DNA of 64,000 bases from a virus: IMG/VR virus record IMGVR_UViG_3300032897_000003, positions 1 to 64,000 of that record. One strand, 5' to 3'. This document shows positions 31,609 through 51,921 of the stretch, in pieces (position 1 is the first letter of the stretch; every line of letters begins with the position of its first letter). A model generated the notes under the pieces. That model had not been told where the DNA came from. It saw only the letters and a program-made list of their open reading frames with translations, and did not search any database. Position numbers and translations under genes: made by a program.

Positions 31609-31616
31609 GAGGGACC

Positions 31617-32195
31617 ATGCTGGACCAGATTCCGTTTGTGCAGGCTCGTTATTGGAAGGCAGCTGACCGTGCCGACGTGAAGTACGTCGTGATCCACACG
31701 ATGGAGTTGCCCTGCCAGGTTGGCATCGCCGAGCGGCTCGCCGATCGCATGGCTGCGCTTCCGGCGGGGCTGCCAAAAGAAAAACAGAAGTCGGCTCACT
31801 ACTACATCGACCCGGACGAGATCTACCAGGGCGTGATCGAGAAGCATGTCGCCTTCCACTGCCGCAAGGCCAATCGCGAAGGTATCGGGATCGAGCACTC
31901 GGCTTACGCGTACGACGTGTTCGCAGAGGGCAAGATGATTGCGCGCGCGACCGACTTTGCCAGTCCGGAGGCGCTAGCCATGCTCGAGCGCTCCGCCGAG
32001 CTCGTGGCGAGTATTTGCAAGCGGTGGAGCATTCCGGTCGTGCGGTTGATGCCGGGCCAGATTGCCAGCGGACGAGGCATCGTTGGCCACGTCGACGTGA
32101 TGACCGAGTTCCCCGGGTCTGGCACCCATCGCGATCCGGGCCCGCGGTGGCCATGGTCCATGTACCTGCAGTTGGTGAAGCAGGCGATGGCGTAA
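31617..32195 (+). CDS. endolysin, N-acetylmuramoyl-L-alanine amidase (Amidase_2)
   Basis: 192 residues with AGGAGGGACC before ATG 31617; longer readings of the frame overlap the membrane gene. Amidase_2 hallmarks: VKYVVIHTME (first zinc His), SAHYYIDPDEIYQGV, GIEHSAYA, then IVGHVDVM (second zinc His) and GTHRDPGPRWPW (third ligand Asp/His region). Cleaves the amide bond between muramic acid and the stem peptide. No signal peptide, so a holin is needed. No separate binding domain. Confidence 0.88.
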   Translation: MLDQIPFVQARYWKAADRADVKYVVIHTMELPCQVGIAERLADRMAALPAGLPKEKQKSAHYYIDPDEIYQGVIEKHVAFHCRKANREGIGIEHSAYAYDVFAEGKMIARATDFASPEALAMLERSAELVASICKRWSIPVVRLMPGQIASGRGIVGHVDVMTEFPGSGTHRDPGPRWPWSMYLQLVKQAMA

Positions 32196-32219
32196 GCCGC
32201 AAGCTCATCGACAATAATC
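32191..32219 (+). promoter_or_regulatory. phage-type promoter (weak copy)
   Basis: CGTAAGC at 32191 and CGACAATAATC at 32209, 18 bases apart start to start, 7 bases before ATG 32227. The -35-like half is the weakest of the six sites, the -10-like half is exact. Confidence 0.55.
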
Positions 32220-32226
32220 ACGATGC

Positions 32227-32613
32227 ATGGAAGCTCCAGTGCGTGAGAGACTGCCCTCAGAGCGAAGTGGGGTGACGAAGAAGATCCACCTGCACTACAC
32301 CGTCGAACAGCAGCTACGCGAACTGAAGCTGTATATCACGATCGGTGAGTACCCAGATGGCCGGCCGGGCGAGGTGTTCCTCAAGGTCGACAAGATGGGC
32401 TCGACGATCAGCGGCTTGATGGATGCTCTGTCGATCACGCTGTCGATCGGGCTGCAGCACGGGGTGCCGCTCGCCGAGTACCTCGACAAGCTCGTGAATA
32501 TGCGGTTTGAACCGATGGGGACGACCGAGGACGCGGACCTGCCCAGGGTGACCTCAATCGTCGATGCGGTGGCGCGGTACCTCTCCAGACGCTACCCTAA
32601 GCCTGGGGCGTGA
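32227..32613 (+). CDS. stand-alone TSCPD-domain protein
   Basis: 128 residues. The core YITIGEYPDGRPGEVFLKVDKMGSTISGLMDALS (split here) and GVPLAEYLDKLVNMRFEP closely follow the C-terminal TSCPD domain of B12-dependent (class II) ribonucleotide reductase, including the preceding RLPSER-type linker. The catalytic reductase domain is missing from this protein and from the window. It could bind or regulate host reductase or have another role. No ribosome site is apparent; the promoter box ends 7 bases before the start. Confidence 0.8.
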   Translation: MEAPVRERLPSERSGVTKKIHLHYTVEQQLRELKLYITIGEYPDGRPGEVFLKVDKMGSTISGLMDALSITLSIGLQHGVPLAEYLDKLVNMRFEPMGTTEDADLPRVTSIVDAVARYLSRRYPKPGA

Positions 32614-32683
32614 TTCCTGACGTCCTCGCACAGAGGCGTAACTATTCACGAATTGGTTCGTGCGTTTTCTTGTCGAATTTTAC

Positions 32684-32712
32684 TTGCGAACCTAACGAAT
32701 CTAGCGTATCTT
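32684..32712 (+). promoter_or_regulatory. sigma-70-like promoter
   Basis: TTGCGA, 17 bases, TATCTT. Transcription would start at about 32719-32722, on or next to the ATG codons there, implying a leaderless or near-leaderless message. The surrounding 80 bases are AT-rich for this genome. Confidence 0.6.
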
Positions 32713-32718
32713 ATGATC

Positions 32719-32994
32719 ATGATGATCAACACACGGACACAGGAGACGACGGCGACCCTCTCCTTCTTCCGCACCTTCGGCGCGACGGGACGGATTGATA
32801 CCATCGAGTTTGCTACCGGAGACGAGCTGGCGCGTTATATCGAATCCGAGCAGGGAATGGGCGAGTGGATCTACGTCACAATGGCGCGTGCTGATGCTGA
32901 GCGCCTGGGCCTGTTCCAGCATGAACTCGGGTTTTTGGCCATCCCGGCACCAGCGGCGGTCTGGGGTTGCGTGTCCATTCAGCATCTCAACTAG
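32719..32994 (+). CDS. hypothetical protein, possibly leaderless
   Basis: 91 residues from ATG 32719 (ATG 32713 and 32722 are in the same frame). Contains FFRTFGATGRIDTIEF and a Trp-rich middle. No ribosome site, but a good promoter ends 6 bases before it. Family not recognised. Likely the first gene of an early unit. Confidence 0.55.
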   Translation: MMINTRTQETTATLSFFRTFGATGRIDTIEFATGDELARYIESEQGMGEWIYVTMARADAERLGLFQHELGFLAIPAPAAVWGCVSIQHLN

Positions 32995-33017
32995 TAGGCT
33001 CCCGCGTCCCTGCCCCT

Positions 33018-33035
33018 CTCCGAGCCACCTCGGAG
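33018..33035 (+). promoter_or_regulatory. leader hairpin
   Basis: CTCCGAG-ccac-CTCGGAG, a perfect 7-bp stem with a 4-base loop, in the 102-bp gap before the next start. No T-tract, so more likely a structured leader than a terminator. Confidence 0.4.
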
Positions 33036-33096
33036 ACGGACAGAGGCGAGGAGCCCCGAGCCGGCCGGTTGCCGGCGAATCCACGGAGAAAATCAC

Positions 33097-33480
33097 ATGA
33101 CCACTACCACCACTACCATCACCCACGAAGGCACCCAAATCACTGCGTCCGAGGCATCCTGGCGCGCTCTCGGATTCCAGCTGTTGCTCGATGGCAATAG
33201 CGATAGATTGATGCTAGGCGCTGGCCCGCATGGAATCGAGGCTCTGCTGTATTTTGGCATCCAACAGGCGGGCACTCGCGACGAGCGCGCCGTAATCGCC
33301 GCCATCGTCGAGCGTGATCGACGAGCCGAAGAGCGCACGAAAGCAACGGCCCAAGCCCGTCTCGCGGAATCTCTCGGAGCCCTAGCACGAGAATTCCACG
33401 CCGAGACGGCCGAACAGCTCGTAGCGCGACTGCCCGACAAGATCAGGCCGTACGTCGCAAAGATCATGCAGCAGCGATAG
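33097..33480 (+). CDS. hypothetical protein
   Basis: 127 residues with CGGAGAA ahead of the ATG. Opens with a Thr run (MTTTTTTITHEG), then a small globular part, then a long charged helix (VERDRRAEERTKATAQARLAE). No family recognised. Its stop is followed by the first copy of a duplicated structured element. Confidence 0.6.
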   Translation: MTTTTTTITHEGTQITASEASWRALGFQLLLDGNSDRLMLGAGPHGIEALLYFGIQQAGTRDERAVIAAIVERDRRAEERTKATAQARLAESLGALAREFHAETAEQLVARLPDKIRPYVAKIMQQR

Positions 33481-33483
33481 CTT

Positions 33484-33545
33484 CCCGCGCGCTTCGGCGC
33501 GCTCTGCTCACGATCGTCGCGGGCAGAGCGGACTGAAGAACGGAG
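33484..33545 (+). repeat. structured intergenic element, copy A
   Basis: Begins three bases after a stop codon and ends at the ribosome site of the next gene. Contains GCGCGC-TTCG-GCGCGC and a 10-bp helix CGCTCTGCTC/GGGCAGAGCG that uses the last bases of the first hairpin, so the two cannot form fully together. About 80% identical to copy B at 33871. Confidence 0.65.
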
Positions 33546-33555
33546 GGGGGTGGCC

Positions 33556-33867
33556 ATGACGACGCAAACGACGGAGACGAAGAAGATGGATTGGAACGCC
33601 ACGCGCAATTATGTCAAGAAATACTGGATTGTCGCCGAGTTGGCAGACAAGAACCTCCTGCCTAAAGACGCCGAGGCGATCGTCGCGGAATACGCGGGAA
33701 AGCTCTCGGTCAAGCAAATTGGCATCGTGTGCGGCTCGCTCGGCACCATCTGGATCGAAATCTATGTGTCAGCGTCTGACAAGGACGCTCTCTTCGTAGC
33801 GTTCGAGGCCGACGACCGGATCGCGGAGTATCACCAGAGCGGACCCGGATCCGTGTCGCCTCTGTAG
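33556..33867 (+). CDS. hypothetical protein
   Basis: 103 residues from ATG 33556 behind GGAGGGGGG (GTG 33550 is possible). Contains YWIVAELADKNLLPKDAEAI and a beta pair IGIVCGSLGTIWIEIYV. No family recognised. Flanked on both sides by copies of the structured element. Confidence 0.55.
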   Translation: MTTQTTETKKMDWNATRNYVKKYWIVAELADKNLLPKDAEAIVAEYAGKLSVKQIGIVCGSLGTIWIEIYVSASDKDALFVAFEADDRIAEYHQSGPGSVSPL

Positions 33868-33870
33868 CAC

Positions 33871-33934
33871 CCCGCGCGCTTCGGCGCGCTCTGCCCACGA
33901 GCCTCGCGGGTGGAGCGGACCGAAACACAGGAGG
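33871..33934 (+). repeat. structured intergenic element, copy B
   Basis: Same start as copy A (three bases after a stop) and same end (ribosome site). The long helix is kept as CGCTCTGCCC/GGGTGGAGCG: a G-C and a T-A pair have become G.T and T.G and a T.G has become C-G, so pairing is preserved though bases differ. Confidence 0.65.
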
Positions 33935-33940
33935 GGACCA

Positions 33941-34132
33941 GTGGACCAGGTACACCACACGAACGGCTCGAGAGCGCTTGCGCGGCAGCCACAGGAGCAC
34001 CTAATCGCGATGATCAGAGCGATACCGGCGAAGTACCGCCGGGCCTCCCTACGCAGGCTGCTCCGGCTGGGGAACATCAGCGAGGCTACCTACCACTCCC
34101 GAATGCGGGAGATCATGACCATCGGACTCTAG
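33941..34132 (+). CDS. small basic helical protein
   Basis: 63 residues from GTG 33941 with GGAGGGG ahead. The second half, AKYRRASLRRLLRLGNISEATYHSR, looks like a helix-turn-helix (inference). Possibly a small DNA-binding regulator. Confidence 0.55.
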   Translation: MDQVHHTNGSRALARQPQEHLIAMIRAIPAKYRRASLRRLLRLGNISEATYHSRMREIMTIGL

Positions 34133-34142
34133 GAGGACCACC

Positions 34143-34331
34143 ATGTTGCAGTTGCGCGTTGTGAAAGTGGAACGGCCAATCGGATCCATGGCATGTGCTG
34201 TCGGCGTGGACAAGAAGGGGCGCAAGGTGCGCTTCCTTGGCGACGCCCGGATGATGGTGGACGTCTCCGAGGCCCTGCGCTCCAGACGTCGGCCACGGGT
34301 GACAGTCGAGTTTTGGCAGGTCGTAGCCTAG
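34143..34331 (+). CDS. small hypothetical protein
   Basis: 62 residues with AGGAGGACC ahead of ATG 34143. Beta-rich (LRVVKVERPIG, RPRVTVEFWQVVA). No family recognised; last gene before a new promoter. Confidence 0.6.
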   Translation: MLQLRVVKVERPIGSMACAVGVDKKGRKVRFLGDARMMVDVSEALRSRRRPRVTVEFWQVVA

Positions 34332-34337
34332 AAGGGC

Positions 34338-34366
34338 TTGCAAGAAGACATCACGTAACTTACACT
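34338..34366 (+). promoter_or_regulatory. sigma-70-like promoter of the sigma-factor operon
   Basis: TTGCAA, 17 bases, TACACT; a ribosome site (GGAGGT) and ATG 34394 follow 15-28 bases later. It heads genes 34394-35964. Confidence 0.6.
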
Positions 34367-34393
34367 ACTGAAACATCTGACGGAGGTAGGACC

Positions 34394-34588
34394 ATGCACG
34401 AGGGACCAAGTGCACTCCAGCATCGGCATCATTGCCCGCATTGCCACAGGGTGACCATCGATTCTAACCGCGACGTCGTCACTTGCAGCAACCCAGCTTG
34501 CGGCAAGCTGATCGAAACGCCACCGCAGGCGACCATGCTGCTCAGTAAGGCAGCGTTTGGGTCTCTGGTGGAGGAGTCTCAGCGATGA
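34394..34588 (+). CDS. zinc-ribbon protein
   Basis: 64 residues. HHCPHCHRVT and CSNPACGKLIET supply two Cys pairs of a zinc ribbon. Small ribbons next to transcription factors often act on RNA polymerase or DNA. It begins the sigma operon and overlaps the next start (ATGA). Confidence 0.65.
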   Translation: MHEGPSALQHRHHCPHCHRVTIDSNRDVVTCSNPACGKLIETPPQATMLLSKAAFGSLVEESQR

Positions 34589-34794
34589 CCGGGCGCCATT
34601 TGACAGTGAAGCTCCACGGCGGTGGAGAGGCCGAGTCGATCGATTTGGCTTACACCGGCGGTCCGGAGGGGAAGCTGCAGCTCGACATCTGGGCCCGCGG
34701 TGGCCGGCAGGATGGCGTACCTGCGATCCAGATCCTTGCGACGGGGCAGGATGTCTCCAACGTGCTGAAGGCCATCAAGTCGGTGATGCCGTGA
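34585..34794 (+). CDS. small hypothetical protein
   Basis: 69 residues, coupled on both sides (ATGA before, GTGA after). Beta strand start HLTVKLHGGG, then IDLAYTGG and a C-terminal helix. Not recognised; its tight coupling to the sigma gene suggests a shared role. Confidence 0.6.
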   Translation: MTGRHLTVKLHGGGEAESIDLAYTGGPEGKLQLDIWARGGRQDGVPAIQILATGQDVSNVLKAIKSVMP

Positions 34795-35333
34795 GATCTG
34801 CCTACCTCACAATGCCCACGGCAGTCCGAGCTGTGGTGAACAACTACAGCGCGCGGGCCCCGTGGCTGCGAGACGACCTCGAACAGGAGGCCATCATTGC
34901 GATGATGGTCGCGAAGAAGGCGTGGAAACCCGGTCTCGCGCCGCTCGACCTGTTCCAGGCCAAGATCGTGGCGCGCGAGCTGCGCTTCTTCATCGCCCGA
35001 TCGTCGAGCCCTGTGTCGGCGACCAGGGAGGTGTTCCTCAAGCGGCAGTTTCAGACAGAGACGCTCGACCCGAGCAATGAGCTTGGGCGGGCTGTCCATC
35101 CAGCGATGGAATTCGAGATGGACCTGAAGCGGGCTGTGGCCGAGGTCGTGCGAATCCTCGACGGGGTCGACTCCGGGACTGCCGACGTCATCCTTGGCGA
35201 GTCCCCGTCCCGCGAGGTGGCGAAGTCGGCGCGACTGCCCATTCGCACGGTCTACAAGCGCGTCTGGAAGGCTCGTCAACAGCTGCACCGAAACCCGCGC
35301 CTCAAGGCGTATCTGGAAGGAGAATCCTCGTGA
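34791..35333 (+). CDS. phage sigma-70-like (ECF-like) transcription factor
   Basis: 180 residues from GTG 34791 (overlaps the previous TGA); an upstream open frame is discarded. Region 2-like: APWLRDDLEQEAIIAMMVAK then a Pro-Gly turn and DLFQAKIVARELRFFI, matching the 'D-L-x-Q-E-a...A' core-binding helices. Region 4-like: GESPSREVAKSARLPIRTVY with KRVWKARQQLHRN, a clear helix-turn-helix. Regions 1 and 3 are absent, as in ECF sigmas. Expected to redirect host RNA polymerase; a matching family of six non-standard promoters lies nearby. Might alternatively be a non-sigma HTH regulator. Confidence 0.7.
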   Translation: MRSAYLTMPTAVRAVVNNYSARAPWLRDDLEQEAIIAMMVAKKAWKPGLAPLDLFQAKIVARELRFFIARSSSPVSATREVFLKRQFQTETLDPSNELGRAVHPAMEFEMDLKRAVAEVVRILDGVDSGTADVILGESPSREVAKSARLPIRTVYKRVWKARQQLHRNPRLKAYLEGESS

Positions 35334-35713
35334 GCACACCGATCAACGACGTCTCGATATTTGGCCAGTTTCCAGCGCCGGGGCCGCAGCCGCCCGACCC
35401 AGGATCTCCCCCACAGGTCGACACCGGCAACGGCGAAAAGGAAGCGTGGATGCGAGCCTTCCACGAGCTGGAGGAATGGCGGAGAAAGGCACGGGCACAT
35501 CTGCTCGCGGCCGAGTTGGCGCGTCTGCAGGAAGCGCGATTGCGCGAGCTCGACGGGGCCAAGGATGGTCATGTGCTCGGGCAGACCTTCGACATCGTGA
35601 CCACGCTGCTGCTCATCGGCAGCATGCTGCTCGAGAAGGAGCTCAGCCGGTCGCACGCCGCGGAAGCCTTCCAAGGCACCGAGATCGGCAAAATCCTGCA
35701 GGCGTTGGCGTAG
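35330..35713 (+). CDS. hypothetical helical protein
   Basis: 127 residues from GTG 35330 (GTGA). Pro-rich first 35 residues, then a long helix EEWRRKARAHLLAAELARLQ and a hydrophobic stretch IVTTLLLIGSMLL (one possible membrane segment). By its place it could modulate the sigma factor, for example as an anti-sigma, but there is no motif for that. Confidence 0.55.
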   Translation: MSTPINDVSIFGQFPAPGPQPPDPGSPPQVDTGNGEKEAWMRAFHELEEWRRKARAHLLAAELARLQEARLRELDGAKDGHVLGQTFDIVTTLLLIGSMLLEKELSRSHAAEAFQGTEIGKILQALA

Positions 35714-35715
35714 CC

Positions 35716-35964
35716 ATGAAGACGCGCGAACGACAGCGCACGCTGATGGCAGAGAAAGGCTACCTCACGATGGATGAGGCGGCGGAGTTGGTCGGTCTCA
35801 CCCGGACTGCCATCAGTCTGTGGTGCTCGGATGGCAAGATCGAATCCACGAAGTTGGGGAAGCACCGCTACATCAAGCGGGACAGCCTCATGAGGCACTT
35901 GGGAGCCGATGCCACGCAGGCGCTCGGCCTCGTGGAAGCGAAGCCCGCCCGGGGAAAATCCTAG
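35716..35964 (+). CDS. excisionase/MerR-type HTH protein
   Basis: 82 residues from ATG 35716, 2 bases after the previous stop. Standard helix-turn-helix 17 pattern: YLTMDEAAELVGLTRTAISLW, SDGKIESTKLGKHRYIKRDSL. Family members are excisionases or small DNA-binding regulators. The following bases contain a phage-type promoter. Confidence 0.75.
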   Translation: MKTRERQRTLMAEKGYLTMDEAAELVGLTRTAISLWCSDGKIESTKLGKHRYIKRDSLMRHLGADATQALGLVEAKPARGKS

Positions 35965-35980
35965 CGACTCCGACAATGAT
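35953..35980 (+). promoter_or_regulatory. phage-type promoter
   Basis: GGAAAAT at 35953 and CGACAATGAT at 35971, 18 bases apart. Ribosome site AGGAGGG and ATG 35999 follow. The -35-like half overlaps the end of the HTH gene. Confidence 0.65.
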
Positions 35981-35998
35981 ACTGGCCAGGAGGGATCG

Positions 35999-36985
35999 AT
36001 GAGCGACAAGACACTTGCGACCACCGCGACCCAAGAGGTGGCGAAACCAGCAGCATTCTCGTTCGATGTCGATGTCCAACGCGTGATCGCTATTCGTCGA
36101 GCCGTCGAGGAGATCATCGAGAAGGTGCTCGTGGAGGGCGAGCATTATGGGGTGATCCCAGGAACGAGCCAGCCCGACAAGAAGCCCAAGAAGGCTCTGT
36201 TGCAGCCGGGCGCAGAGGTGCTGTGCCAGGTGTTCCGCTTTCGTCCGAAGTACGTTGTCGAGACGAAGGAGGAGCGCCCGGACTTCATCCTGCGCGAGTA
36301 CCGGTGCGAGCTATACAACGTGGTGACTGGCGAGCTGGTCGGAGAGGCAATCGGCTCCGCCAATTCCCGCGAGGAGAAGTACCTCGTGCAGACGGCGGCG
36401 CGCCTCTGCCCGGTGTGTAACAAGCCGACGATCATCAAGGGCAAGGACGAGTTCGGGGGCGGGTGGCTCTGTTTCGCGAAGAAGGGCGGGTGCGGGGCCA
36501 AGTTTGTCGACGAAGACAAGAAGATCCTCGACCAGACCGGCGCCGTCAGCTCGGACAAGGTGCAGAACCTGCACAACACCATCATCTCGATTGCGCAGAA
36601 GCGCGCGTTCGTGAAGGCCACCAGGACCGCGACGGCGACGTCGAACATCTTCACCGACGAGCCAGATGATGTTCACGGAGATGACAAGGACGCTGGCGGC
36701 AAGGGGTCCGGCCAACCGCAATCAGGGAAGCCTGCCACGTCGATCAAGGCTGACGCGACGAAGATCCGCGACCTGAACTTCGCCCTGCGAGACGCCGGGA
36801 TCGGTCTCGCCGGCACGGAGAACATGGCCAAGGGGGAGAGGGATCCGGCCATCCTCAAGAACCGCCTGGAATGGATCAACGCCCGCCTGGAAGAGGCAGG
36901 CCAGACCAAGGTGTCCAGCCTGATGGACCTCACGCCAGACCAGGCCGACATGCTCATGGGCGAAGTGAAGAAGGGCGGCAAGTAG
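35999..36985 (+). CDS. conserved phage protein with zinc ribbon, candidate recombination mediator
   Basis: 328 residues behind AGGAGGG. The 'LVEGEHYGVIPGTSQPDKKP...LLQPGAEVLCQVF' pattern marks a phage family usually near RecT- or nuclease-type genes. A ribbon with CPVCNKP and CFAKKGGCG sits at about residues 135-165. KVQNLHNTIISIAQKRAFVKA resembles a helix seen in single-strand annealing and DNA-binding proteins of such operons. The neighbour is a PD-(D/E)XK nuclease, 3 bp downstream. A role as annealing protein is inference. Confidence 0.6.
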   Translation: MSDKTLATTATQEVAKPAAFSFDVDVQRVIAIRRAVEEIIEKVLVEGEHYGVIPGTSQPDKKPKKALLQPGAEVLCQVFRFRPKYVVETKEERPDFILREYRCELYNVVTGELVGEAIGSANSREEKYLVQTAARLCPVCNKPTIIKGKDEFGGGWLCFAKKGGCGAKFVDEDKKILDQTGAVSSDKVQNLHNTIISIAQKRAFVKATRTATATSNIFTDEPDDVHGDDKDAGGKGSGQPQSGKPATSIKADATKIRDLNFALRDAGIGLAGTENMAKGERDPAILKNRLEWINARLEEAGQTKVSSLMDLTPDQADMLMGEVKKGGK

Positions 36986-36988
36986 TCC

Positions 36989-38044
36989 ATGGCGAAGAAA
37001 CGAACGCGCCCGAGCAGCCTGCAAATGGCCGAGAGCTGCGCCCGAGCTCCGTACCTCTCGGCGAAGTACAACCAGTCGATGGAGAACACACGGTTCGGGG
37101 GCGACGTCGACCGTCAGGTGAGCACCCTGCTGAAGGGGAATCTGGACGACCTGCCGGAGGACCAGCCGATCCACCCGGAGACTCAGATCATCCTCAACTG
37201 GCTGGCGGAGAACTATCCTGCCTCCGACTGGGAGTACCACGTGCAGGAGAAGGTCACGCTGTTAGACCCGATGTCCAGCGCTGACCCGCCGGACGAGCTT
37301 ACCAACGGCACGCCAGACCTGATCTGCGTGCACCGGACGGAGCCGATCTTCGTCGATATCGACTGGAAGTCGATCGGTCAGATGTGGGCCGCCCACCTGG
37401 CACCGCCAGACGAGAACCTGCAGCAGCTCTCCTATGTCGCCGGTTTCTGGCTAGCGTCGAGTCGCAAGTTCGAGTCGGCGAGGATCGTGCTCGCGTGCTG
37501 GGATGCCCGCGGTGTGAAGCCGCTTGAGTCGCAGCCGATCTTGGCCGACCAGCTCGGCGACATCGTGAGGAGAATCGCCGCAGTCCCCGGCATCGACCTG
37601 GAGGAAGTCCAGCCGGAGGCATCCGTGGGGGATCACTGCGACCACTGCTACCAGCGCATGCATTGCGATGCCCACCTGCTGCCGGCCGGCGCACTGGTGA
37701 AGGCTGGGCTGACGAGCGGAGAGGCTGCCGTCGCAGGATTCGAGGAAGCTTCTGGCCAACTCGACGCTGAGAGCGCTGTGCGTGCCCTGGCCTGGATGGA
37801 ACAGGCGAAGCGCGTGCTCAAATCGGCCCAGGGGATGGTCGATATCGTCGAGGCGAACGTCAACGCCTATTCCGTGCGTGAGGGACCAATCGTTGCCGGG
37901 GAGATGGCTTATGGACCATGCCTGTCAGCTGGGAAACGCATGGGGGCTACCGTGGCCACGCTCGAGAAGGAGGGTCTGCAGCGGCTTATCCGGCCGGGCA
38001 AGCCTGGCGTGCGGTACAAATGGTTCCGGAAGTCCGATCTGTGA
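36989..38044 (+). CDS. PD-(D/E)XK nuclease with C-terminal Cys cluster (RecB/Cas4-like)
   Basis: 351 residues. Opens with RTRPSSLQMAESCARAPYLSA, the usual 'S-x-L-x-x-x-x-x-C-P' start. NGTPDLICV followed by EPIFVDIDWKS gives the catalytic Asp and D-x-K, and NLQQLSYVAGFW fits the 'Q...Y' helix. DHCDHCYQRMHC with the earlier Cys can hold an iron-sulphur cluster as in AddB or Cas4. Likely a DNA exonuclease that works with the previous gene product. Confidence 0.75.
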   Translation: MAKKRTRPSSLQMAESCARAPYLSAKYNQSMENTRFGGDVDRQVSTLLKGNLDDLPEDQPIHPETQIILNWLAENYPASDWEYHVQEKVTLLDPMSSADPPDELTNGTPDLICVHRTEPIFVDIDWKSIGQMWAAHLAPPDENLQQLSYVAGFWLASSRKFESARIVLACWDARGVKPLESQPILADQLGDIVRRIAAVPGIDLEEVQPEASVGDHCDHCYQRMHCDAHLLPAGALVKAGLTSGEAAVAGFEEASGQLDAESAVRALAWMEQAKRVLKSAQGMVDIVEANVNAYSVREGPIVAGEMAYGPCLSAGKRMGATVATLEKEGLQRLIRPGKPGVRYKWFRKSDL

Positions 38045-38049
38045 CGTCG

Positions 38050-38078
38050 GGCAAACCTGACCGCAGACGACAATAATC
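38050..38078 (+). promoter_or_regulatory. phage-type promoter
   Basis: GGCAAAC at 38050 and CGACAATAATC at 38068, 18 bases apart. ATG 38095 follows, with GAGG between. Confidence 0.7.
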
Positions 38079-38094
38079 CAGATCGAGGACACAC

Positions 38095-38385
38095 ATGCCA
38101 CAGCAAGGTTCACTTTTCGAAGCTGAGTTCGTCAGTCAGAACCCAGCTCGCAACGAACAGACCAGGTCGGCGATTGTCGAAGTGCAGAACTACATCGTCG
38201 AGAAGGTTGCGGAGCGACATGGGGGGTACGCGCCGGTGCCGAACGATCCGGTGTTCACGGCCGTCGAGTGCCTGACCCATCTGGTTGGTGGGCTGATCGC
38301 CGAGAACCGCTCGCTCCACGAGAAGATCGCCAACATGGACTTGCGTCTGCGCGGGCTCGATAACAAGCGACCAGCGACATCGTAG
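38095..38385 (+). CDS. hypothetical protein
   Basis: 96 residues. Acidic/aromatic start QQGSLFEAEF, then helices, ending in a coiled-coil-like NRSLHEKIANMDLRLRGLDN. The 'QGSLF' start resembles clamp-binding peptides (QxxLF), an inference worth noting as a clamp-like gene exists at 62805. Separated by 2 bp from the ATPase gene. Confidence 0.6.
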   Translation: MPQQGSLFEAEFVSQNPARNEQTRSAIVEVQNYIVEKVAERHGGYAPVPNDPVFTAVECLTHLVGGLIAENRSLHEKIANMDLRLRGLDNKRPATS

Positions 38386-38387
38386 CA

Positions 38388-39995: not shown

Positions 39996-40249
39996 GAGAC
40001 CAACACGGGCTGATGCTCAGCCGTCGCAGCACCCTCAAACGGTACACCACACTTAGGCGAGCTCGCCCCATCAAGCGAGTCTCGCCTAAGCCTCGTTCTG
40101 GTGGAGAGCCCGAGCGCCGCGCCTGGATTCGGTCCCTCCCATGCTGCGCCCCTGGCGCCCCTTGTGGCTGCTACGGGGCATCCGACCCGCACCATGCCGG
40201 CAGGAAGCCAGGCATGCGCCTGAAGGCCCCAGACGATACGGTAATCCCG

Positions 40250-40275
40250 CTGTGCCGGCAGCCTGTGCCGGCAGC
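40250..40275 (+). repeat. exact 13-bp tandem duplication
   Basis: CTGTGCCGGCAGC at 40250-40262 and again at 40263-40275, inside the HNH-like gene. Length is not a multiple of three. Confidence 0.95.
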
Positions 40276-40386
40276 ACCACACCGACGTTGATGCCTTCTC
40301 GGGTCCCTTCCGCGGCTGGACCGGGGAGCAGTTGCGGGCCTGGCAGGACGAAAGGATAGCGGAGTACCAAGAGCGATTTCAGCGTA

Positions 40387-40415
40387 GGAAAACCGTGACG
40401 TTCCCGACAATAATC
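40387..40415 (+). promoter_or_regulatory. phage-type promoter
   Basis: GGAAAAC at 40387 and CGACAATAATC at 40405, 18 bases apart; ATG 40421 lies six bases after AATAAT, so the message would be leaderless or nearly so. Confidence 0.7.
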
Positions 40416-40420
40416 CCGGT

Positions 40421-42075: not shown

Positions 42076-42331
42076 CTTGGTTGAGCGGAAGAGGCTGTTC
42101 ATCGCTGGCATGGCAGCCTTGGCCGATGCATTCGATATCTCGCTGAGGGATGCGCGGGTCGCCGTCTACTGGTCAGTCCTTGGCCGATACGAGACCAGTG
42201 CGCTGAAGAAAGCCCTGCAGGAAGCGCTTGAGAACGAAAGCAGGTTCCCTTCTGTCGCCGACATCCGGAAGTACATCGAGCCGCTGCTCGACCCTCGGCA
42301 TCCTCCGACCTCGTACAAAGTCCTCGGGTAA
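42062..42331 (+). CDS. probable helicase loader or replication accessory
   Basis: 89 residues from TTG 42062 (TTG 42068 is possible), overlapping the previous stop. Helical, with VYWSVLGRYETSALKKALQEAL and ESRFPSVADIRKYIEP, the 'F-P-x-x-A-x-I' end found in phage proteins such as G39P-like loaders. Directly precedes DnaB. Function is inferred from this ending and the neighbours. Confidence 0.6.
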   Translation: MALSDLVERKRLFIAGMAALADAFDISLRDARVAVYWSVLGRYETSALKKALQEALENESRFPSVADIRKYIEPLLDPRHPPTSYKVLG

Positions 42332-42355
42332 ACAGGAGAGTATTCGCCAATAATC
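42327..42355 (+). promoter_or_regulatory. phage-type promoter
   Basis: GGTAAAC at 42327 and CGCCAATAATC at 42345, 18 bases apart. The GGTAAAC overlaps the stop of the previous gene. Start GTG 42372 follows with AGGA between. Confidence 0.7.
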
Positions 42356-42371
42356 GCAATTCAGGACCGCC

Positions 42372-45050: not shown

Positions 45051-45250
45051 CGCCACAAAGCCGCAAGCTCTGGAGGATCCACGACAAGGCCTTCCGCCAA
45101 GCCAAGGCAGATGGGGCATGCTTCGACTGCGCAACTGACGCCGGGTTCGCTGCGACGGATACCGTCGCCGGACAAACGAGGGTGGCCAAGCTTTGCCCGA
45201 AGTGCACACGCAACACGAAGGAAAGGACGACACCATCATGGCCATGCTGA
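45047..45250 (+). CDS. small CxxC protein
   Basis: 67 residues, ATGA-coupled to DnaB. Two Cys pairs, CFDC and CPKC, about 30 apart make a probable zinc finger. Basic overall. Overlaps the next start by 13 bases. Not recognised. Confidence 0.6.
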   Translation: MTPQSRKLWRIHDKAFRQAKADGACFDCATDAGFAATDTVAGQTRVAKLCPKCTRNTKERTTPSWPC

Positions 45251-45657
45251 GACGACTGCCCGTAAAGCTCACCAACGAGGAGTTGCTTGACCGGAGCAAG
45301 TCCCTAACCACGGAGCTCGACAAGAAGGACGCCCTAACTGCCAAGAAGAAAAGCGAGGCGGAGAAGATCGCGGGCGACATCGCCCTAGTCGAGGAAGGAA
45401 TCCAAGCCCTGCGAAAAGCGCTCCGTGACGGAGAAGAAGAGCGCGATGTCGAGTGCCACGTGCACAGGGACTTCGACAACCACACGGTGGTGACGATCCG
45501 TAACGACACCGGCGAAATCATCGAGGAGCGGCCCATGACCCAAGCCGAGCTGCAGACGTCACTGCTCGACCGTGGCGCCGAGCAACACGGGAAGCTTCTC
45601 GCAATCAACGGCGACAAGCCGAAGGGAGACGAAGAGAAGGACAAGCCGAAGAACTGA
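45238..45657 (+). CDS. hypothetical coiled-coil protein
   Basis: 139 residues from ATG 45238. The first ~65 residues form a charged coiled coil (KLTNEELLDRSKSLTTELDK, then KKKSEAEKIAGDIALVEEG); then a beta part (HTVVTIRNDTGEIIEERPMT) and a Lys/Asp tail. Part of the DnaB unit. No family recognised. Confidence 0.6.
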   Translation: MAMLRRLPVKLTNEELLDRSKSLTTELDKKDALTAKKKSEAEKIAGDIALVEEGIQALRKALRDGEEERDVECHVHRDFDNHTVVTIRNDTGEIIEERPMTQAELQTSLLDRGAEQHGKLLAINGDKPKGDEEKDKPKN

Positions 45658-45698
45658 ACCGACACACGAGGCTGGACCACCATTCGAAAGGAGACCAT

Positions 45699-46361
45699 AT
45701 GCGACGACCGAAACCACCTACGAGCATCAACAACGTCAACGTCAGCCCGACAGCACCAGCGGACAAGCCCGGCGGAGAAAACCCGATCGAGGTTACGATC
45801 CGTCCGCTGAACCTGCAGCGCACGACCATCAAGATCCGCGGCATCAGCACGCTGATCATGCACGCCTGGAGTCAGAAGGCCATCAAGATGATCGAGGACA
45901 AGCAGCAGAAGAAAGCCACGGGGCCGCGGAAGGCGAAGGACCCGCAGGCCGACTTCGAGAGCGCGCGATATCGCATCGACAAGAACACGGACGGGATCCC
46001 GGCCATCGCGCTGAAAGCGTGCGCTGTCGAGGCCGGCGTGTTGCTCGGGCTGAAGAAGACGAACTTGCGTAAGTCCTTCTTCGTTGGGCCCGACGGCGAG
46101 GAGCTCATCCCCATCATCGTGGCCGAAGAGCCAGCGATGAGGCGGGACATGGTGCGAGTCGGGATGGGCACCAGCGACGTGCGGTACCGACCGGAGTACA
46201 AGGACTGGAGCTGCGAGATTCCGATCGAGTTCAACGCCGACGCGATCTCGGCCGACCAGCTCGTCAACCTGTTCGACCAGGGCGGGTACTCCGTCGGGGT
46301 CGGCGAGTGGCGGCCCGAAAAGGACGGGACGCACGGAAGATTCAGGGTGGTAAGCGAATAG
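45699..46361 (+). CDS. conserved phage protein, function unknown
   Basis: 220 residues behind AAAGGAGA. Beta-alpha sequence with TLIMHAWSQKAIKMI, PEYKDWSCEIPIEFNADAIS and a C-terminal GYSVGVGEWRPEKDGTHGRF. The Gly-x-Gly-E-W-R-P end is shared by a phage family near recombination and replication genes, and is reminiscent of the Gly-rich loop of RAMP-fold proteins, though the resemblance may be chance. Confidence 0.6.
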   Translation: MRRPKPPTSINNVNVSPTAPADKPGGENPIEVTIRPLNLQRTTIKIRGISTLIMHAWSQKAIKMIEDKQQKKATGPRKAKDPQADFESARYRIDKNTDGIPAIALKACAVEAGVLLGLKKTNLRKSFFVGPDGEELIPIIVAEEPAMRRDMVRVGMGTSDVRYRPEYKDWSCEIPIEFNADAISADQLVNLFDQGGYSVGVGEWRPEKDGTHGRFRVVSE

Positions 46362-46367
46362 CTGCCC

Positions 46368-46982
46368 ATGCTGAACCACCTGGCACAGTTGCCGCGCCCT
46401 TCCCTCGACCTGACAGAAGGAGACTGTGAGATCGTCCGCAAGACGCTCGAGCAGTTGAAGTCGGAAGGGCGTGCGACACCAGATGCATTCCTCACCGCAG
46501 CGGAGCCGGAGGACAGTCCGCTCCATAAGTTTTTCGAGTGGGACAACGACCGGGCTGCGCACGAGCACCGCCTACTGCAGGCGCGCCAGCTCGTTCGCAC
46601 GGTTGTTCTTCGTCCCGTCCGCGTGGAGACGACCAGGAAAACCATCAGCGTTCGCATAAATCCAAGCGTGCGAGAGGAGGATGAGGACGACGAGCGACCG
46701 GAGCCAAGACTGCCTCTTCCGACCCCGATACCAGAAACGCAGGTGACAAGAGGGAAAATCAAGGAGCTGGCGGATCGAATCGAGGATGCGCTCAAAGATG
46801 CCCGTGGAACCATGGACATCTTCGACGAGATGAGAACGCTGCGCGAGATCTTGGCAGACCTACGGCAAAAAGCACCCTGGGAGGGAAAGCGTTGCCCGAA
46901 GTGCAGCTTGCTCGGGCATGCTCCAGGCTCACGCTTCTGCACCCCGGTGAACCAGTGTCTAGGAAGAAAGGCGATCGACTGA
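46368..46982 (+). CDS. conserved phage protein with DSPLHxFFEWD motif
   Basis: 204 residues, 6 bp after the previous gene. LTAAEPEDSPLHKFFEWDND and AAHEHRLLQARQLVRTV match a conserved phage family that usually sits near replication genes. The C-terminus has CPKCSLLGHAPGSRFC, a single zinc-binding Cys set. Function unknown. Confidence 0.65.
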   Translation: MLNHLAQLPRPSLDLTEGDCEIVRKTLEQLKSEGRATPDAFLTAAEPEDSPLHKFFEWDNDRAAHEHRLLQARQLVRTVVLRPVRVETTRKTISVRINPSVREEDEDDERPEPRLPLPTPIPETQVTRGKIKELADRIEDALKDARGTMDIFDEMRTLREILADLRQKAPWEGKRCPKCSLLGHAPGSRFCTPVNQCLGRKAID

Positions 46983-47496
46983 CATGGCAGTAAGGGTTGG
47001 CTGGGCTTGTCTTGGATCGGCCGTCAGGTACTGGCTAGTCTGGTCGTGGCTGCGCAGGCAGTCATGGCTGGTCGGGGCGTCGATTGGCGTGGCCGTCGGG
47101 TTTGGGAGCGGCCAGGAAAGGCGGGTCCAGGCCAGGCAGTATGGGCTGGTCATGGTCGGGACATGAAGGCTTGGCTAGGCAGGCAAGGCGAGGTACGTCG
47201 GATCATGGGTAGGAACGGCAGGCGTCGAATGGCAAGGATGGGCCTCGGTGGCAAGGCCTGGCAGTCAGGGCTTGTCTGCGCCAGGAAGGGAATGGTTTGG
47301 ACAGGCAGGGCATGGATCGGCAGGAGCGGCCAGGATTTGTTGGGACAGGCGGGTCAAGTCGTGGAGTGGCAGGCATGGCTAGTCTCGGCGACGACAGGAG
47401 GGGATGGGCAGGAAGTGCTAGGCTTGGTTTGTACCGGATCGGAGGGGCAGGCGGGGCTAGTTGTGGCCCGGAACGAAGCGGAAAGGCAGGGCAGGC
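46983..47496 (+). repeat. G-rich, C-poor degenerate repeat region (514 bp)
   Basis: No credible gene. The top strand holds about twice as many G as C (29 to 14 in the 60 bases from 47041) and degenerate repeats of GGCAGGC, GGCATGG and GGCTGGTC words (47056, 47132, 47170, 47300, 47375, 47481). Two long open frames cross it but read as Gly/Trp/Arg low complexity. The last unit (GGCAGGGCAGGC) doubles as the ribosome site of 47497. Confidence 0.7.
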
Positions 47497-47904
47497 ATGG
47501 ACGTAGAGCAAATTGACTTGAACCACATCAAGAGAGCGGTGTTCGAGCTCGTCTGGAAGGAAGATGGGCGAGTCACGCTGTTCATCAACAAACACGACAG
47601 CCGCGTGTTCCCTCAACCGGGACCGGGGATTCTTTCTTCAGGCAGCAAGAATGATCGGCATCTCAAGGCCGAAAGAGATGGGATTTCAGGAACGATATCC
47701 GTCCGTTGGAGAAGTGAGAGTGGTGGAATCTCAAGCACGGCCAGCGAAGGGATCCCGCCAGTCGAGGTATTTCTTCCGTGGGAGTGCTTGGCCGGCATCT
47801 CGCTGGGCAATCCGAATGCTCCAGTGTTCGCTGGCGTTTGGGCTCTGTGGGAGGGCTTCACCTCGGACAATGACGTCGAGGTCCCGACGAAACAGATGTG
47901 CTGA
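47497..47904 (+). CDS. hypothetical protein
   Basis: 135 residues from ATG 47497. Beginning MDVEQIDLNHIKRAVFELVW, then a beta-rich part with VEVFLPWECLAGISLG. Its normal composition contrasts with the G-rich DNA upstream. No family recognised. Confidence 0.6.
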   Translation: MDVEQIDLNHIKRAVFELVWKEDGRVTLFINKHDSRVFPQPGPGILSSGSKNDRHLKAERDGISGTISVRWRSESGGISSTASEGIPPVEVFLPWECLAGISLGNPNAPVFAGVWALWEGFTSDNDVEVPTKQMC

Positions 47905-48080
47905 CGACTATGATGTTCACGGCGAAGATAGGCGACATCCTCCGCTGGGACGCACAGTCGTGCTCGGTTCTTCTCGTGCATGCAGGCGACAATGCGGAGG
48001 CGGTGGCATTTCTGCGCAAGAACCGAGACGCCATTGTGCAGGTGACCGTCGAACTGGCCAAAACGAAGGAGGTGAAATAG
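47898..48080 (+). CDS. small hypothetical protein
   Basis: 60 residues from GTG 47898 (overlap with the previous stop); ATG 47910 or 47913 are alternatives. Beta-rich, MMFTAKIGDILRWDAQ, with a Lys-rich end. Not recognised. Confidence 0.5.
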   Translation: MLTTMMFTAKIGDILRWDAQSCSVLLVHAGDNAEAVAFLRKNRDAIVQVTVELAKTKEVK

Positions 48081-48084
48081 CCAG

Positions 48085-48588
48085 ATGCCACAGGCGCAGC
48101 TCTTTGCCGAGGAGCCCAGAGCGGTGTTCAGTGACGACCGTCGCTACCGGTATCGACTTTGGCGAACCGTCGAGGACGTTGCGATCCTGAAGCGCAAGGC
48201 GGTGATGATCGGGCTCAACCCGAGCATTGCCGACGAACACGTGTTGGACCCGACTCTGAAGAGGTTCTTGTCCTTCTGCCGACTCTGGGGCTGCTCGCGT
48301 ATGGAGGTGGTCAACCTGTTCGCGCTCGTCAGCACTGATCCGTCCGGGCTGTACACGTGCGCTGATCCGGTCGGACCTGGGAACGACTTGGCCATCGACG
48401 TAGCTGTGGTCGATGCAGACGTCATTGTCGCATGCTGGGGAGCCCATCCAATGGCTGCGAAGCGGGCATCCGACGTGCTCAGTATGCTCGGTACCAGGCA
48501 GCTGATGTGCTTCGGGCGCAACCACGACGGCTCTCCCAAGCATCCGCTCTACCTGCCGAAGACGGCCGAGCTGTCGGTGTATGCATGA
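48085..48588 (+). CDS. DUF1643 protein
   Basis: 167 residues. DUF1643 is recognisable from KAVMIGLNPSIADEHVLDPTL, RLWGCSRMEVVNLFALVSTD and VIVACWGAHP...CFGRNHDGSPKHPLYLP. The family is common in phages and plasmids; its activity is not established. Coupled by ATGA to a small nuclease-like gene. Confidence 0.85.
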   Translation: MPQAQLFAEEPRAVFSDDRRYRYRLWRTVEDVAILKRKAVMIGLNPSIADEHVLDPTLKRFLSFCRLWGCSRMEVVNLFALVSTDPSGLYTCADPVGPGNDLAIDVAVVDADVIVACWGAHPMAAKRASDVLSMLGTRQLMCFGRNHDGSPKHPLYLPKTAELSVYA

Positions 48589-48944
48589 CCACGCTAGATT
48601 CGGTACTGGAAGTGCTGCGCGGGATGCGCATCATGTTCTCGGACGAGAAGGAGCTACAGGACGCGGTCGAGAAGGCGATGACGACCGCGAGTATCCCTCA
48701 CCAGCGAGAGGCTATCCTCGGGCCTCGCGACCGGATCGACTTCATGGCGGACGGGGGGATCGGAATCGAGTGCAAGATCGACCACAGCCGGGCGGACTTG
48801 CTGAGACAGCTGTTCCGCTACAGCAAACAGCCACAGGTGCGCGTCTTGGTTGTGGTGCTAGGGAAGCTGCGACTGTCCGCGCTCCCTACCGAGATGAACA
48901 ACATCCCCATCCACGTGGTCAACCTCGTGAGGGCCTTCGTTTGA
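48585..48944 (+). CDS. small PD-(D/E)XK-like nuclease
   Basis: 119 residues. DRIDFMADGGIGIECKIDHSRA has the D...E-x-K core strand pair, and LLRQLFRYSKQPQVRVLVVVLG fits the following helix and strand. Size is right for a VRR-NUC-like or Holliday-junction-type nuclease domain. It is coupled on both sides, to DUF1643 and to the helicase, so it probably acts with the helicase. Confidence 0.7.
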   Translation: MTTLDSVLEVLRGMRIMFSDEKELQDAVEKAMTTASIPHQREAILGPRDRIDFMADGGIGIECKIDHSRADLLRQLFRYSKQPQVRVLVVVLGKLRLSALPTEMNNIPIHVVNLVRAFV

Positions 48945-51880
48945 GCGGGCAAGTCTCTCTATTCTCGAAAGTAGCCGAACCTGCGGCTAAGTCTGCACAT
49001 GCTGGGGTGGTCAGAGCGGTACGAATCTACGGGAAGGTGATCTACAACGTGGCCAAGCGGGCCTGGGAGATCGACTGCGAGCCGCAGGTAAGGCAGCGTC
49101 TGAAACGGGTGTTTCCGCGGATCAAGGCGGGAGCGGTCGACCTTTGCCTCGAGGACAACATCGACGCCGGGCGGGACCTGGCGTGGTTTCTCGATCGCTA
49201 TCCAATGGAGATCTCACCGGCAGACATGCGGCTCTTGCGCGAGCGAGAGACCGAGCACCGCGTGCTGGTTGAGGACATCGGACGGATCATGCAGTCGGAC
49301 TATGTGCCGACGGACATCACGTTGGCAATACCGCTGCGCAACTACCAGGCGCAGGCAGTCGATCTGACGAAGCGGGTGTTCGGGCTGCTCGATGCGGATG
49401 ATCTCGGAGTCGGGAAGACAGCCATTGGAATCGGATTGCTGGCCGATCCAAGGGCGCGTCCGGCGCTGGTCGTTACGTTGACCCACCTACCCGGGCAGTG
49501 GAAGCGCGAGATCGAACGGTTCGCCCCCGGACTCAACGTGCACATCCTGAAGAAGGGAACACCGTACAAGTTCGAGATCCGCGGCGGGCAGGAGTATTTC
49601 CCCGACGTCATCGTGACCAACTACCACAAGCTGGTCGGGTGGGCCGAAGAGCTACACGGCAAAGTCCAGACGGTGATCTTCGACGAGGCGCACGAGCTGA
49701 GGCGCAGCACGAGTGAGAAATACAGCGCTGCCAAGCGGGTCGCAGCAAAGTCGCGGTATAGGCTTGGGCTCACGGCAACCCCGATCTTCAACTTCGGTGG
49801 CGAGTTCTTCAATATCGCGGACGTGCTCCGCCCAGGAGATCTCGGAACGTGGGAGGAATTCTGCACGGAGTGGTGCAGTGGCTTCGCCGACAAGACGAAG
49901 GCCACCATTACGAAGCCGAAGGAGTTCGGGGCATACGTGCGCGAAGCTGGTTTGATGATCCGGCGTACGCGCAAAGAGGTTGGGCGCGAGCTGCCGCCGC
50001 TTACCATCTGCCCGCAGCTCGTCGATGCCGACCTGTTCTACTTGGACGAGATCGAGACCGAGGCCACCGCGCTGGCCAAGATCGTCTTGTCGGGAGGGGC
50101 TAACCCGTTCGAACAGCTGCGAGCAAGCCAGGAGCTGTCATGGAAGCTGCGCCAGGCCACTGGCGTCGCGAAGGCTCCTGCAGTAGCCGAGTTCACCCGC
50201 ATGCTTGTGGAGGGGGAAGAATCGGTCGTGCTGTTCGGATGGCACCGTGAGGTGTACCGCATCTGGGCGGAGCGGCTGGCCGACCTCGAACCGGTGTTTT
50301 TCACGGGAGAGGAGACTCCAGGGCAGAAGGAGGCAGCCGCGCAGGCCTTCATCGGTAAGAAAACCAAGTTGCTCATCATGAGCCTGCGGGCCGGGGCAGG
50401 CATCGATGGCCTGCAGAAAGCCTGCAGGACAGCCGTGTACGGTGAGATGGACTGGTCCCCGGCCGTGCACGAGCAGTGCCTCTCGAGCGATACCGAGATA
50501 TTGACGCCAGCCGGATTTCTCGGGGTTGACGCCGTAAAAGAGGGTGATGAGGTGGCTGCGTTCGACGCTGCGACCGGAGAGATTCGATGGGTTGCCGCGA
50601 CGAGCAAGGTGGATCGAACTCTCGGCGACGACGAACGGATGTACAGGTGCTACTCGAAGAAGGTCGATTTCCTGGTGACCGGGGATCACCGAATGGTCGT
50701 GAGGCGAAAAACCAGAACGACGGCAGGGGTTGGCAGGTCCCAGTGGGAGTTCGACATCGCTAGAAACATCGCGGGGTCGGCAAGACGCTTCATCCCTACG
50801 AGCGGGGTTCAGTCATCCGACGGTGTTCCTCTGAGTGACTATGAGCTAAGGCTGCTGGGATGGTTTGTGACCGACGGACATTTCAGTGGGCATCAATTGA
50901 TCTTCTATCAGGCTGAACAACAGCCGTGGAATGAAGACCTCGTCGAGGTGCTCAACGGATGCGGCATCGGGTGGACGCTCTTTAAGCGACGAGTCGTGCG
51001 GCCAAGCGGGGTCACAGTGATGAACTGGTACCACGTACCAAAGGGTAATTGCCCTCGGTGGTCAGAAGAGGAGCTAGACCAACTTCTGGCGGTGACAGGA
51101 CTCCCCGAGAGACTGGCTCTGGCGAAGAAGATGGGCAGAACAGAGTATGCGCTATACAAAAAACAGAGAAAGTGGGCACAAGGAGAACGCCCGGTCCCGG
51201 TCAAAAAGCGAGCTGGGCGTGGATATGAAACCTTGGAAAAATACCTCGATAAGAACCTCAGTCCACACCTCGACTCGATGACGAGAGAGCAATTGCGGGC
51301 TTTCCTTCGCGGAGTCAATATGGGCGATGGTGCGAAAGCGATGAAACTCAGCTACAAGATAACGAGCACGAACCGCTTGTTCTTCGACCGCCTCCAATCG
51401 CTCTGTGTGCGCCGTGGATTCTCTGCCAATTTGTCGACGCGCAACGCAGTCACCAAAGCAGGGAAGCCGATTTATGATCTGTGGATTGCCGACAAGGCAG
51501 AGGCGTCAGTCGCGCGATCAGGTAAACCCGGAGGTTTCGCGGAATGTGCGACCGAGTCTAAAGTTAGGGTGTGGTGCCTCAGCAATGAGCTCGGCACTCT
51601 AGTCACGCGCAGGAATGGGAAGGTCGCGATCGTCGGCAATTGCACTGGTCGTCTGTTGCGTGACGGACAACCGGATCCGGTGTTTGCCTATTACCTGCTG
51701 GCAGACTGTGGGAGCGACCCGGTCATCTCGGACGTGCTCGGGGTGAAGAGGGCGCAGCTGGAGGGGATTCGCGACCCGAGCGGAAATCTCATCGAGATGG
51801 CCCAAACTGATCCGGAACGGGTGAAGCGCTTGGCGGAGGCCTACTTAAGGCAGAGAAAAACGGCACCAGAGCGACAATAA
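48941..51880 (+). CDS. SNF2/DEAD-type helicase, interrupted by an intein
   Basis: 979 codons from TTG 48941 (TTGA overlap, GTGAGGG ahead). Motif I ADDLGVGKTAIGIGL at about residues 150-165; motif II VIFDEAHELRRS; LGLTATPIFN is motif III; the intein follows HEQ at Cys513, and motif VI resumes as CTGRLLRDGQ. Without the 388-residue intein the protein has 591 residues, normal for phage SNF2-like helicases. Might remodel DNA during replication or recombination. Last gene before a phage-type promoter. Confidence 0.88.
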   Translation: MSGQVSLFSKVAEPAAKSAHAGVVRAVRIYGKVIYNVAKRAWEIDCEPQVRQRLKRVFPRIKAGAVDLCLEDNIDAGRDLAWFLDRYPMEISPADMRLLRERETEHRVLVEDIGRIMQSDYVPTDITLAIPLRNYQAQAVDLTKRVFGLLDADDLGVGKTAIGIGLLADPRARPALVVTLTHLPGQWKREIERFAPGLNVHILKKGTPYKFEIRGGQEYFPDVIVTNYHKLVGWAEELHGKVQTVIFDEAHELRRSTSEKYSAAKRVAAKSRYRLGLTATPIFNFGGEFFNIADVLRPGDLGTWEEFCTEWCSGFADKTKATITKPKEFGAYVREAGLMIRRTRKEVGRELPPLTICPQLVDADLFYLDEIETEATALAKIVLSGGANPFEQLRASQELSWKLRQATGVAKAPAVAEFTRMLVEGEESVVLFGWHREVYRIWAERLADLEPVFFTGEETPGQKEAAAQAFIGKKTKLLIMSLRAGAGIDGLQKACRTAVYGEMDWSPAVHEQCLSSDTEILTPAGFLGVDAVKEGDEVAAFDAATGEIRWVAATSKVDRTLGDDERMYRCYSKKVDFLVTGDHRMVVRRKTRTTAGVGRSQWEFDIARNIAGSARRFIPTSGVQSSDGVPLSDYELRLLGWFVTDGHFSGHQLIFYQAEQQPWNEDLVEVLNGCGIGWTLFKRRVVRPSGVTVMNWYHVPKGNCPRWSEEELDQLLAVTGLPERLALAKKMGRTEYALYKKQRKWAQGERPVPVKKRAGRGYETLEKYLDKNLSPHLDSMTREQLRAFLRGVNMGDGAKAMKLSYKITSTNRLFFDRLQSLCVRRGFSANLSTRNAVTKAGKPIYDLWIADKAEASVARSGKPGGFAECATESKVRVWCLSNELGTLVTRRNGKVAIVGNCTGRLLRDGQPDPVFAYYLLADCGSDPVISDVLGVKRAQLEGIRDPSGNLIEMAQTDPERVKRLAEAYLRQRKTAPERQ
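50477..51640 (+). other. intein in helicase motif VI
   Basis: 388 residues from Cys513 to Asn900, followed by Cys. Block A CLSSDTEILTPAGFLGVDAV; block B VTGDHRMVV; LAGLIDADG motifs LLGWFVTDGHF and FLRGVNMGDGAK; C-terminal block KVAIVGN. The residue before the last Asn is Gly rather than the usual His, a change seen in some active inteins. The insertion splits motif VI between Q and C-T-G-R. Confidence 0.88.
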
Positions 51881-51881
51881 T
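51855..51881 (+). promoter_or_regulatory. phage-type promoter
   Basis: GAAAAAC at 51855 and CGACAATAAT at 51872, 17 bases apart. The stop codon of the helicase (TAA at 51878-51880) lies in the -10-like box. Confidence 0.65.
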
Positions 51882-51921
51882 ACCGGTGAGCGATGAGCAA
51901 GCCTTTTCGCGGGAGACGCGT

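Follow-up and report, generated by a model that had tools for sequence, protein, structure and literature searches.

Predicted middle promoters shared by a group of metagenomic phages and a candidate ECF-like phage sigma factor that may read them

The phage represented by a 78,929-bp (78.9 kb) IMG/VR virus record, a 64,000-nt part of which (the window) was the stretch of DNA under analysis, carries a small set of two-part repeats standing directly before genes. Given their sequence and placement, these repeats are, with high probability, phage promoters, and we consider it very likely, with slightly less assurance, that they are phage-specific middle promoters read by a small sigma factor encoded by the phage itself (gene 34791-35333).

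The original prediction listed six copies of a non-standard promoter, GGnAAA-N16-AATAAT, each directly upstream of a gene start. All six exist, the copy at 51855 with a shorter spacer and that at 32191 with a weak upstream box, and four of them (35953, with the hexamer AATGAT, 38050, 40387 and 42327) match GGnAAA-N16-AATnAT exactly. The boxes in this phage are GGnAAAC and CGACAATAATC, and a 16-bp spacer separates GGnAAA from AATAAT. A matrix trained on the six reported sites alone and run over the entire record (78,929 bp, both strands) returned eight coding-strand sites with scores of 26.4-32.0, followed by 18.2 (64683, minus strand), 17.0 (66716) and then scores of at most 13.8. The sites first reported, together with a weaker, probable one, are the following.

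32191..32219, plus strand: predicted promoter site, score 26.8; perfect CGACAATAATC but a weak -35 box (CGTAAGC); stands ahead of gene 32227, with the ATG 9 nt past the hexamer
35953..35981, plus strand: predicted promoter site, score 27.5; GGAAAAT and AATGAT; before the gene at 35999
38050..38078, plus strand: predicted promoter site, score 30.0; before gene 38095 and the SbcC/RecF-like ATPase gene 38388
40387..40415, plus strand: predicted promoter site, score 32.0; before gene 40421, with the ATG exactly 7 nt past the hexamer and a predicted leaderless mRNA
42327..42355, plus strand: predicted promoter site, score 28.8; before the intein-bearing DnaB-type helicase gene 42372 (DnaB_C E 3.7e-60)
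51855..51882, plus strand: predicted promoter site, score 30.2; GAAAAAC, spacer reduced by one base; stands ahead of the DUF5131 gene (start 51886, alternatively ATG 51922)
66716: probable site, score 17.0, at a gene start

The other two strong sites, 77966 and 78433, lie beyond the window and are therefore independent predictions of the matrix; both stand directly before ORFs, in the stretch that separates the portal gene from the capsid genes. The statement that no copy occurs in the structural region thus holds within the window and fails outside it, and the proposed control of replication and recombination units, while correct in that such genes are included, is too narrow, given that the DUF5131 gene, small unknown genes and the two portal-side genes are preceded by sites as well.

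All eight strong sites outscore every one of 40 shuffled (third-order Markov) genomes, in which the best score averaged 15.8 and never exceeded 21.2; the same six-site matrix reached 14.6 on the reversed sequence. Every strong site has a same-strand start at +5 to +29 after the hexamer, against 1.7% of strand-positions with a called start 3-30 nt downstream. The whole-genome scan had been named beforehand as the first refuting test, and the motif proved not to be equally frequent inside genes, because the strong sites stand at gene starts. Position 35971, within the site 35953..35981, sits inside an over-extended ORF call, and homology puts the true start of that gene at 35999. Three sites do overlap the stop codon of the upstream gene (genes 48581-51880, 76808-77974 and 78004-78441), as might be the case if the repeats arose by chance or were coding or translational elements devoid of promoter function. 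The chance of this is negligible: the scores are far above those of the controls, the motif is conserved in three other phages, and its distance to the start codon varies, unlike that of a ribosome signal.

The gene downstream of the site 35953..35981 is a proposed target.

35999..36985, plus strand: target gene, 328 aa, phrog_10048 (E 2.1e-27)

The next gene, 36989-38044, matches the phrog_69 exonuclease (E 2.2e-4), and we term gene 35999 a recombination gene because it adjoins this exonuclease gene. Myxococcus phage Mx4 is a match reached through gene 35999. Two other genes of the region, those for the DnaB-type helicase (42372-45050) and an SNF2-type helicase (48581-51880), both contain intein/LAGLIDADG endonuclease domains.

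With the tail sheath protein as query, eight related phage records were recovered. One of these, the near-complete G020 (81.9 kb), is largely collinear with the phage under study and encodes a sigma ortholog (E 1.8e-22, 34% identical to the window sigma) together with five copies of a changed motif, for example, GCGAAAACCGCCCGCCGTGAACAACAATAG, before the orthologs of gene 35999, the SbcC-like gene and others. A further near-complete relative, G021 (75.5 kb), was reached by a two-sequence sigma alignment; it encodes a sigma ortholog (identity 32% with the window sigma, 62% with the G020 protein) and carries seven copies of AAAAC-N10-GATCAACAATA; a fragment, G016, holds two copies. The site before gene 35999 occupies the same position before its ortholog in G020, the genes being 51% identical; in both G020 and G021, a site is present just before the gene preceding their ortholog of gene 32227, and another at the SbcC-like gene or at the small gene before it. 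Across orthologous site pairs, the boxes are alike and the spacers have diverged, as has the upstream flank in four of the five pairs.

Aligned on the hexamer, the 23 sites of the four phages require no gaps and share the core AAAnC-N13-CAAyAAT; numbered from the hexamer end, AAA occupies positions -24 to -22, C position -20 and CAAyAAT positions -6 to 0. In the relatives, the boxes are AAAAC and GAACAACAAT, GGACAACAAT or GATCAACAAT, followed by A. Hence the comparison with relatives bears out the original prediction as regards both boxes and their near-constant spacing, kept in three other phages, and restricts it in one respect: the two Gs of the GGnAAA box are specific to this phage. The shorter spacing at 51855 is that of most sites in the three relatives. 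A strict common expression is matched by 5 of this phage's 9 sites and by 5 in G020, 7 in G021 and 2 in G016, against a Markov expectation of at most 0.06, and by nothing in the reversed sequences. An unbiased search for spaced word pairs returned the motif as its top result in G021; the same search did not rank it in the genome to which the window belongs, tandem repeats and variation among the sites being dominant there. Exact-motif matches in IMG/VR (9 stretches with one match each) were taken as chance or coding occurrences and set aside because they are single in each stretch, five being copies of one sequence. A terminase search yielded two short fragments, neither with the motif.

Conservation across these phages also bears on whether the repeats are simply host sigma-70 promoters whose -10 box is good and whose -35 box is poor, as might be thought from AATAAT, which equals TATAAT in five of six bases. 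However, the -35 box is conserved, and conserved as GGnAAAC, unlike TTGACA; the CGAC before the hexamer is conserved as well; and in relatives the hexamer is AACAAT, a poorer sigma-70 match, yet both boxes persist. A sigma-70 consensus scan of 31001-50000 listed none of the sites, and we regard this reading as very unlikely.

At seven sites, distributed over all four phages, the A of the ATG lies exactly 7 nt past the hexamer (6 nt in one further case and 9 nt in another). Transcription usually starts 7 nt from a -10 box, and because of this coincidence the seven sites probably start leaderless mRNAs. At the remaining sites a leader is present, in several cases one that includes a purine-rich ribosome-binding site. 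With the predicted start 7 nt past the hexamer, the GG-type -35 box would occupy about -34 to -29, the position of the GGAAYA -35 box of Mycobacterium tuberculosis SigH (-34 to -29; PMC6411747).

The proposed reader of the sites and two elements in its vicinity are encoded in the same region of the genome.

34338..34366, plus strand: possible promoter of the host sigma-70 type ahead of the sigma gene, TTGCAA-N17-TACACT, noticed by eye and agreeing with the consensus at 8 of 12 bases
34791..35333, plus strand: phage sigma factor, 180 aa, sigma2 + sigma4 layout, the proposed promoter reader (PHROG 1740, TIGR02937, AlphaFold/PDB folds, orthologs in G020 and G021)
35716..35964, plus strand: HTH_17/excisionase-like DNA-binding protein, 82 aa (Pfam HTH_17 E 1.4e-10), close downstream of the sigma gene

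The protein is homologous to sigma-70 family proteins, matching PHROG 1740 'RNA polymerase sigma factor' (E 9.5e-6; 2.2e-7 for the genome) and, under the curated NCBIfam cut-off, sigma70-ECF TIGR02937 (E 0.0018, 18 against 42.9 bits); the match to Pfam Sigma70_r2 (13.3 against 24 bits) is likewise under the curated cut-off. Because of these sub-cut-off Pfam and NCBIfam scores, we call the protein ECF-like and place it in no named ECF group. The AlphaFold model, derived from four homologs in place of a poor single-sequence model (pLDDT 49), consists of two helical domains, the first confident (pLDDT about 84-91, residues 11-70) and the second weaker, joined by a low-confidence linker; the model and its PDB fold matches indicate sigma2 and sigma4 only, with no sigma3. 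The best of these fold matches are ECF sigma factors, the first being M. tuberculosis SigH (prob 0.99, E 5.7e-3), and the first domain of the model overlays the N-terminal domain of SigE with 1.7 A over 62 columns. As no match in the PDB fold comparison reaches E 0.001, the fold supports the sigma assignment and would not alone prove it. A PDB sequence search with the window sigma gave no match, and a single-sequence search found no close sigma relatives in IMG/VR, GTDB genomes or GenBank phages; tblastn against the GenBank phage collection, the sole comparison bearing on the phiEco32/7-11 sigmas, produced no significant match in any phage. The candidate host-type promoter at 34338-34366 is rated weak because a stricter scan did not call it.

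The earlier hint that a GG-A-A type -35 box belongs to ECF sigma promoters fits a phage that encodes a small ECF-like sigma2 + sigma4 sigma and has GGnAAA at the ECF -35 position. The broader claim of a phage-specific promoter class is well supported, on sequence grounds, by the enrichment at gene starts, the strand bias, the conservation in three other phages and the ATG at +7 in seven sites.

The sigma gene and the promoter set go together among the relatives: both are present in this phage (G000), G020 and G021, and neither this sigma nor the motif is present in G012 and G018, a sample of three genomes with the sigma and two without, all metagenomic records that may be incomplete. G012 is near-complete and has no motif copy; the sigma in its corresponding gene region is FliA/WhiG-like (E 9.8e-24). 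In near-complete G018, which lacks the entire recombination block, neither a sigma nor a motif copy was detected. Thus, the motif shifts along with the phage sigma and is absent in two relatives that lack it, whereas promoters read by one of the host's alternative sigma factors need show no such pattern. Relatives could differ in host, and an upstream AAA with an AT-rich -10 box is found in several alternative sigma classes; even so, we judge reading by a host alternative sigma to be improbable.

The HTH_17 gene has the same distribution as the sigma gene (present in G000, G020 and G021, absent in G012 and G018), and a weakly similar sigma/HTH_17 pair lies side by side in G022, a 20-kb fragment in which the motif was not found. 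The sites might, accordingly, be operators or activator sites of the HTH_17 protein 35716-35964, with the polymerase brought by another sigma. A pair of boxes separated by about 15 nt, an AT-rich hexamer and the ATG at +7 are, however, promoter geometry, and excisionase-type proteins usually bind near recombination sites. This possibility is improbable too, if by a hair less so than reading by a host factor. The HTH_17 protein could equally help the sigma as its partner; it is the less likely promoter reader of the two.

Several observations concern the relatives in their own right. The FliA/WhiG-like sigma gene of G012 (L021 4958-5557) occupies the region that holds an unrelated-looking sigma in the window's phage, and a profile comparison of the two sigmas gave no match; this gene suggests sigma exchange within the lineage. 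G018 (L028) has a two-part repeat of its own, GAAGCCGTTT...GCATATACAGGGG, mostly just before genes, which is possibly another phage promoter class.

G018 contig 75357, 68917, 64536, 60146 and 55808, minus strand, and 35919, plus strand: GAAGCCGTTT...GCATATACAGGGG elements

A second, ECF-type sigma gene is found in G021 (contig 64991-65455, plus strand; TIGR02937 46.6 bits), oriented opposite to the phage genes. At L008 7101-8300, an ORF that by eye resembles an IS200/IS605-type TnpB is inserted between the orthologs of genes 76808 and 78004. Both ends of the 78.9-kb record (window 1-324 and the record end) consist of a degenerate 12-bp tandem repeat (GGGGCCAGCTCn), and G020 likewise ends in a 12-bp repeat; in both cases the genome is probably circular or permuted, with its break at the repeat.

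Returning to the phage sigma as the reader, the following scheme can be envisaged. The sigma would be produced early, probably from a host sigma-70-type promoter and perhaps from the weak candidate at 34338-34366, and would join the host core RNA polymerase, redirecting the host enzyme. The -35 box, GGnAAAC in this phage with the core AAAnC, would be read by its sigma4 domain, and the -10 box, CGACAATAATC in this phage with the core CAAyAAT, by its sigma2 domain. Transcription would begin about 7 nt past the hexamer, a base that in some genes is the A of the start codon, yielding a leaderless mRNA. Such a switch would turn on middle genes that act in DNA recombination and replication, along with some others, among them the two near the portal gene.

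A lineage known, as far as we found, only from metagenomes thereby gains a regulatory map with one candidate sigma and about 23 predicted promoters in four genomes, with predicted start points given to the base. The related phages amount to a natural experiment on the joint change of sigma factors and promoters because they carry either the ortholog and an altered motif, another kind of sigma, or no sigma that could be detected. A more ambitious generalization, which we offer tentatively and hold to be somewhat less probable than not, is that of an undescribed sigma family whose promoter code changes with it, with the whole switch exchangeable within the lineage (this sigma with AAAnC/CAAyAAT, a FliA-type sigma in G012 and GAAGCCGTTT...GCATATACAGGGG in G018) and many promoters initiating the mRNA at the start codon itself. 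A sigma this small, paired with a short and well-separated promoter, might also find use as a tool for orthogonal expression.

Among known systems, the FliA/sigma-28 promoter consensus is TAAA-N15-GCCGATAA. The sites resemble it in having AAA as the upstream box and a downstream box similar to GAyAA, and differ in that their spacing falls short by about two bases and they lack GCCGATAA; as no site fits TAAA-N15-GCCGATAA within 2 mismatches, this reading was rejected, and G012, the relative with a FliA-type sigma, is without the window phage's motif. ECF (group IV) sigmas such as SigH are closer, sharing with the window sigma the sigma2 + sigma4 composition, the length of about 180 aa, the GG-type -35 box, the near-fixed spacing and the fold; in contrast to them, the window sigma scores below the curated family cut-offs, no anti-sigma gene was recognised nearby, and the -10 box is CAAyAAT as opposed to the GTT of SigH. 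The nearest precedent is that of phages phiEco32 and 7-11, in which a phage sigma distantly related to sigma-70 directs middle and late genes from a few well-conserved promoters, early genes, including that of the first sigma, use host promoters, and related phages have kindred, shifted motifs (PMC4331800). The present system, known from sequence, is similar in its distant phage sigma, its few conserved promoters and the shift of the motif among relatives. It differs in the motif, AAAnC-N13-CAAyAAT here against tAATGTATA in phiEco32 (PMC4331800), in having no sigma site between 32209 and the sigma gene, in the lack of a recognised anti-sigma factor, in the many predicted starts that coincide with the start codon, and probably in the sigma, which appears to be of a separate family. 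The kind of system is therefore already known from the phiEco32/7-11 phages; what appears to be undescribed, and new on present reading, is the sigma family, the promoter code, the change of this code among relatives and the frequent identity of the start codon with the predicted +1.
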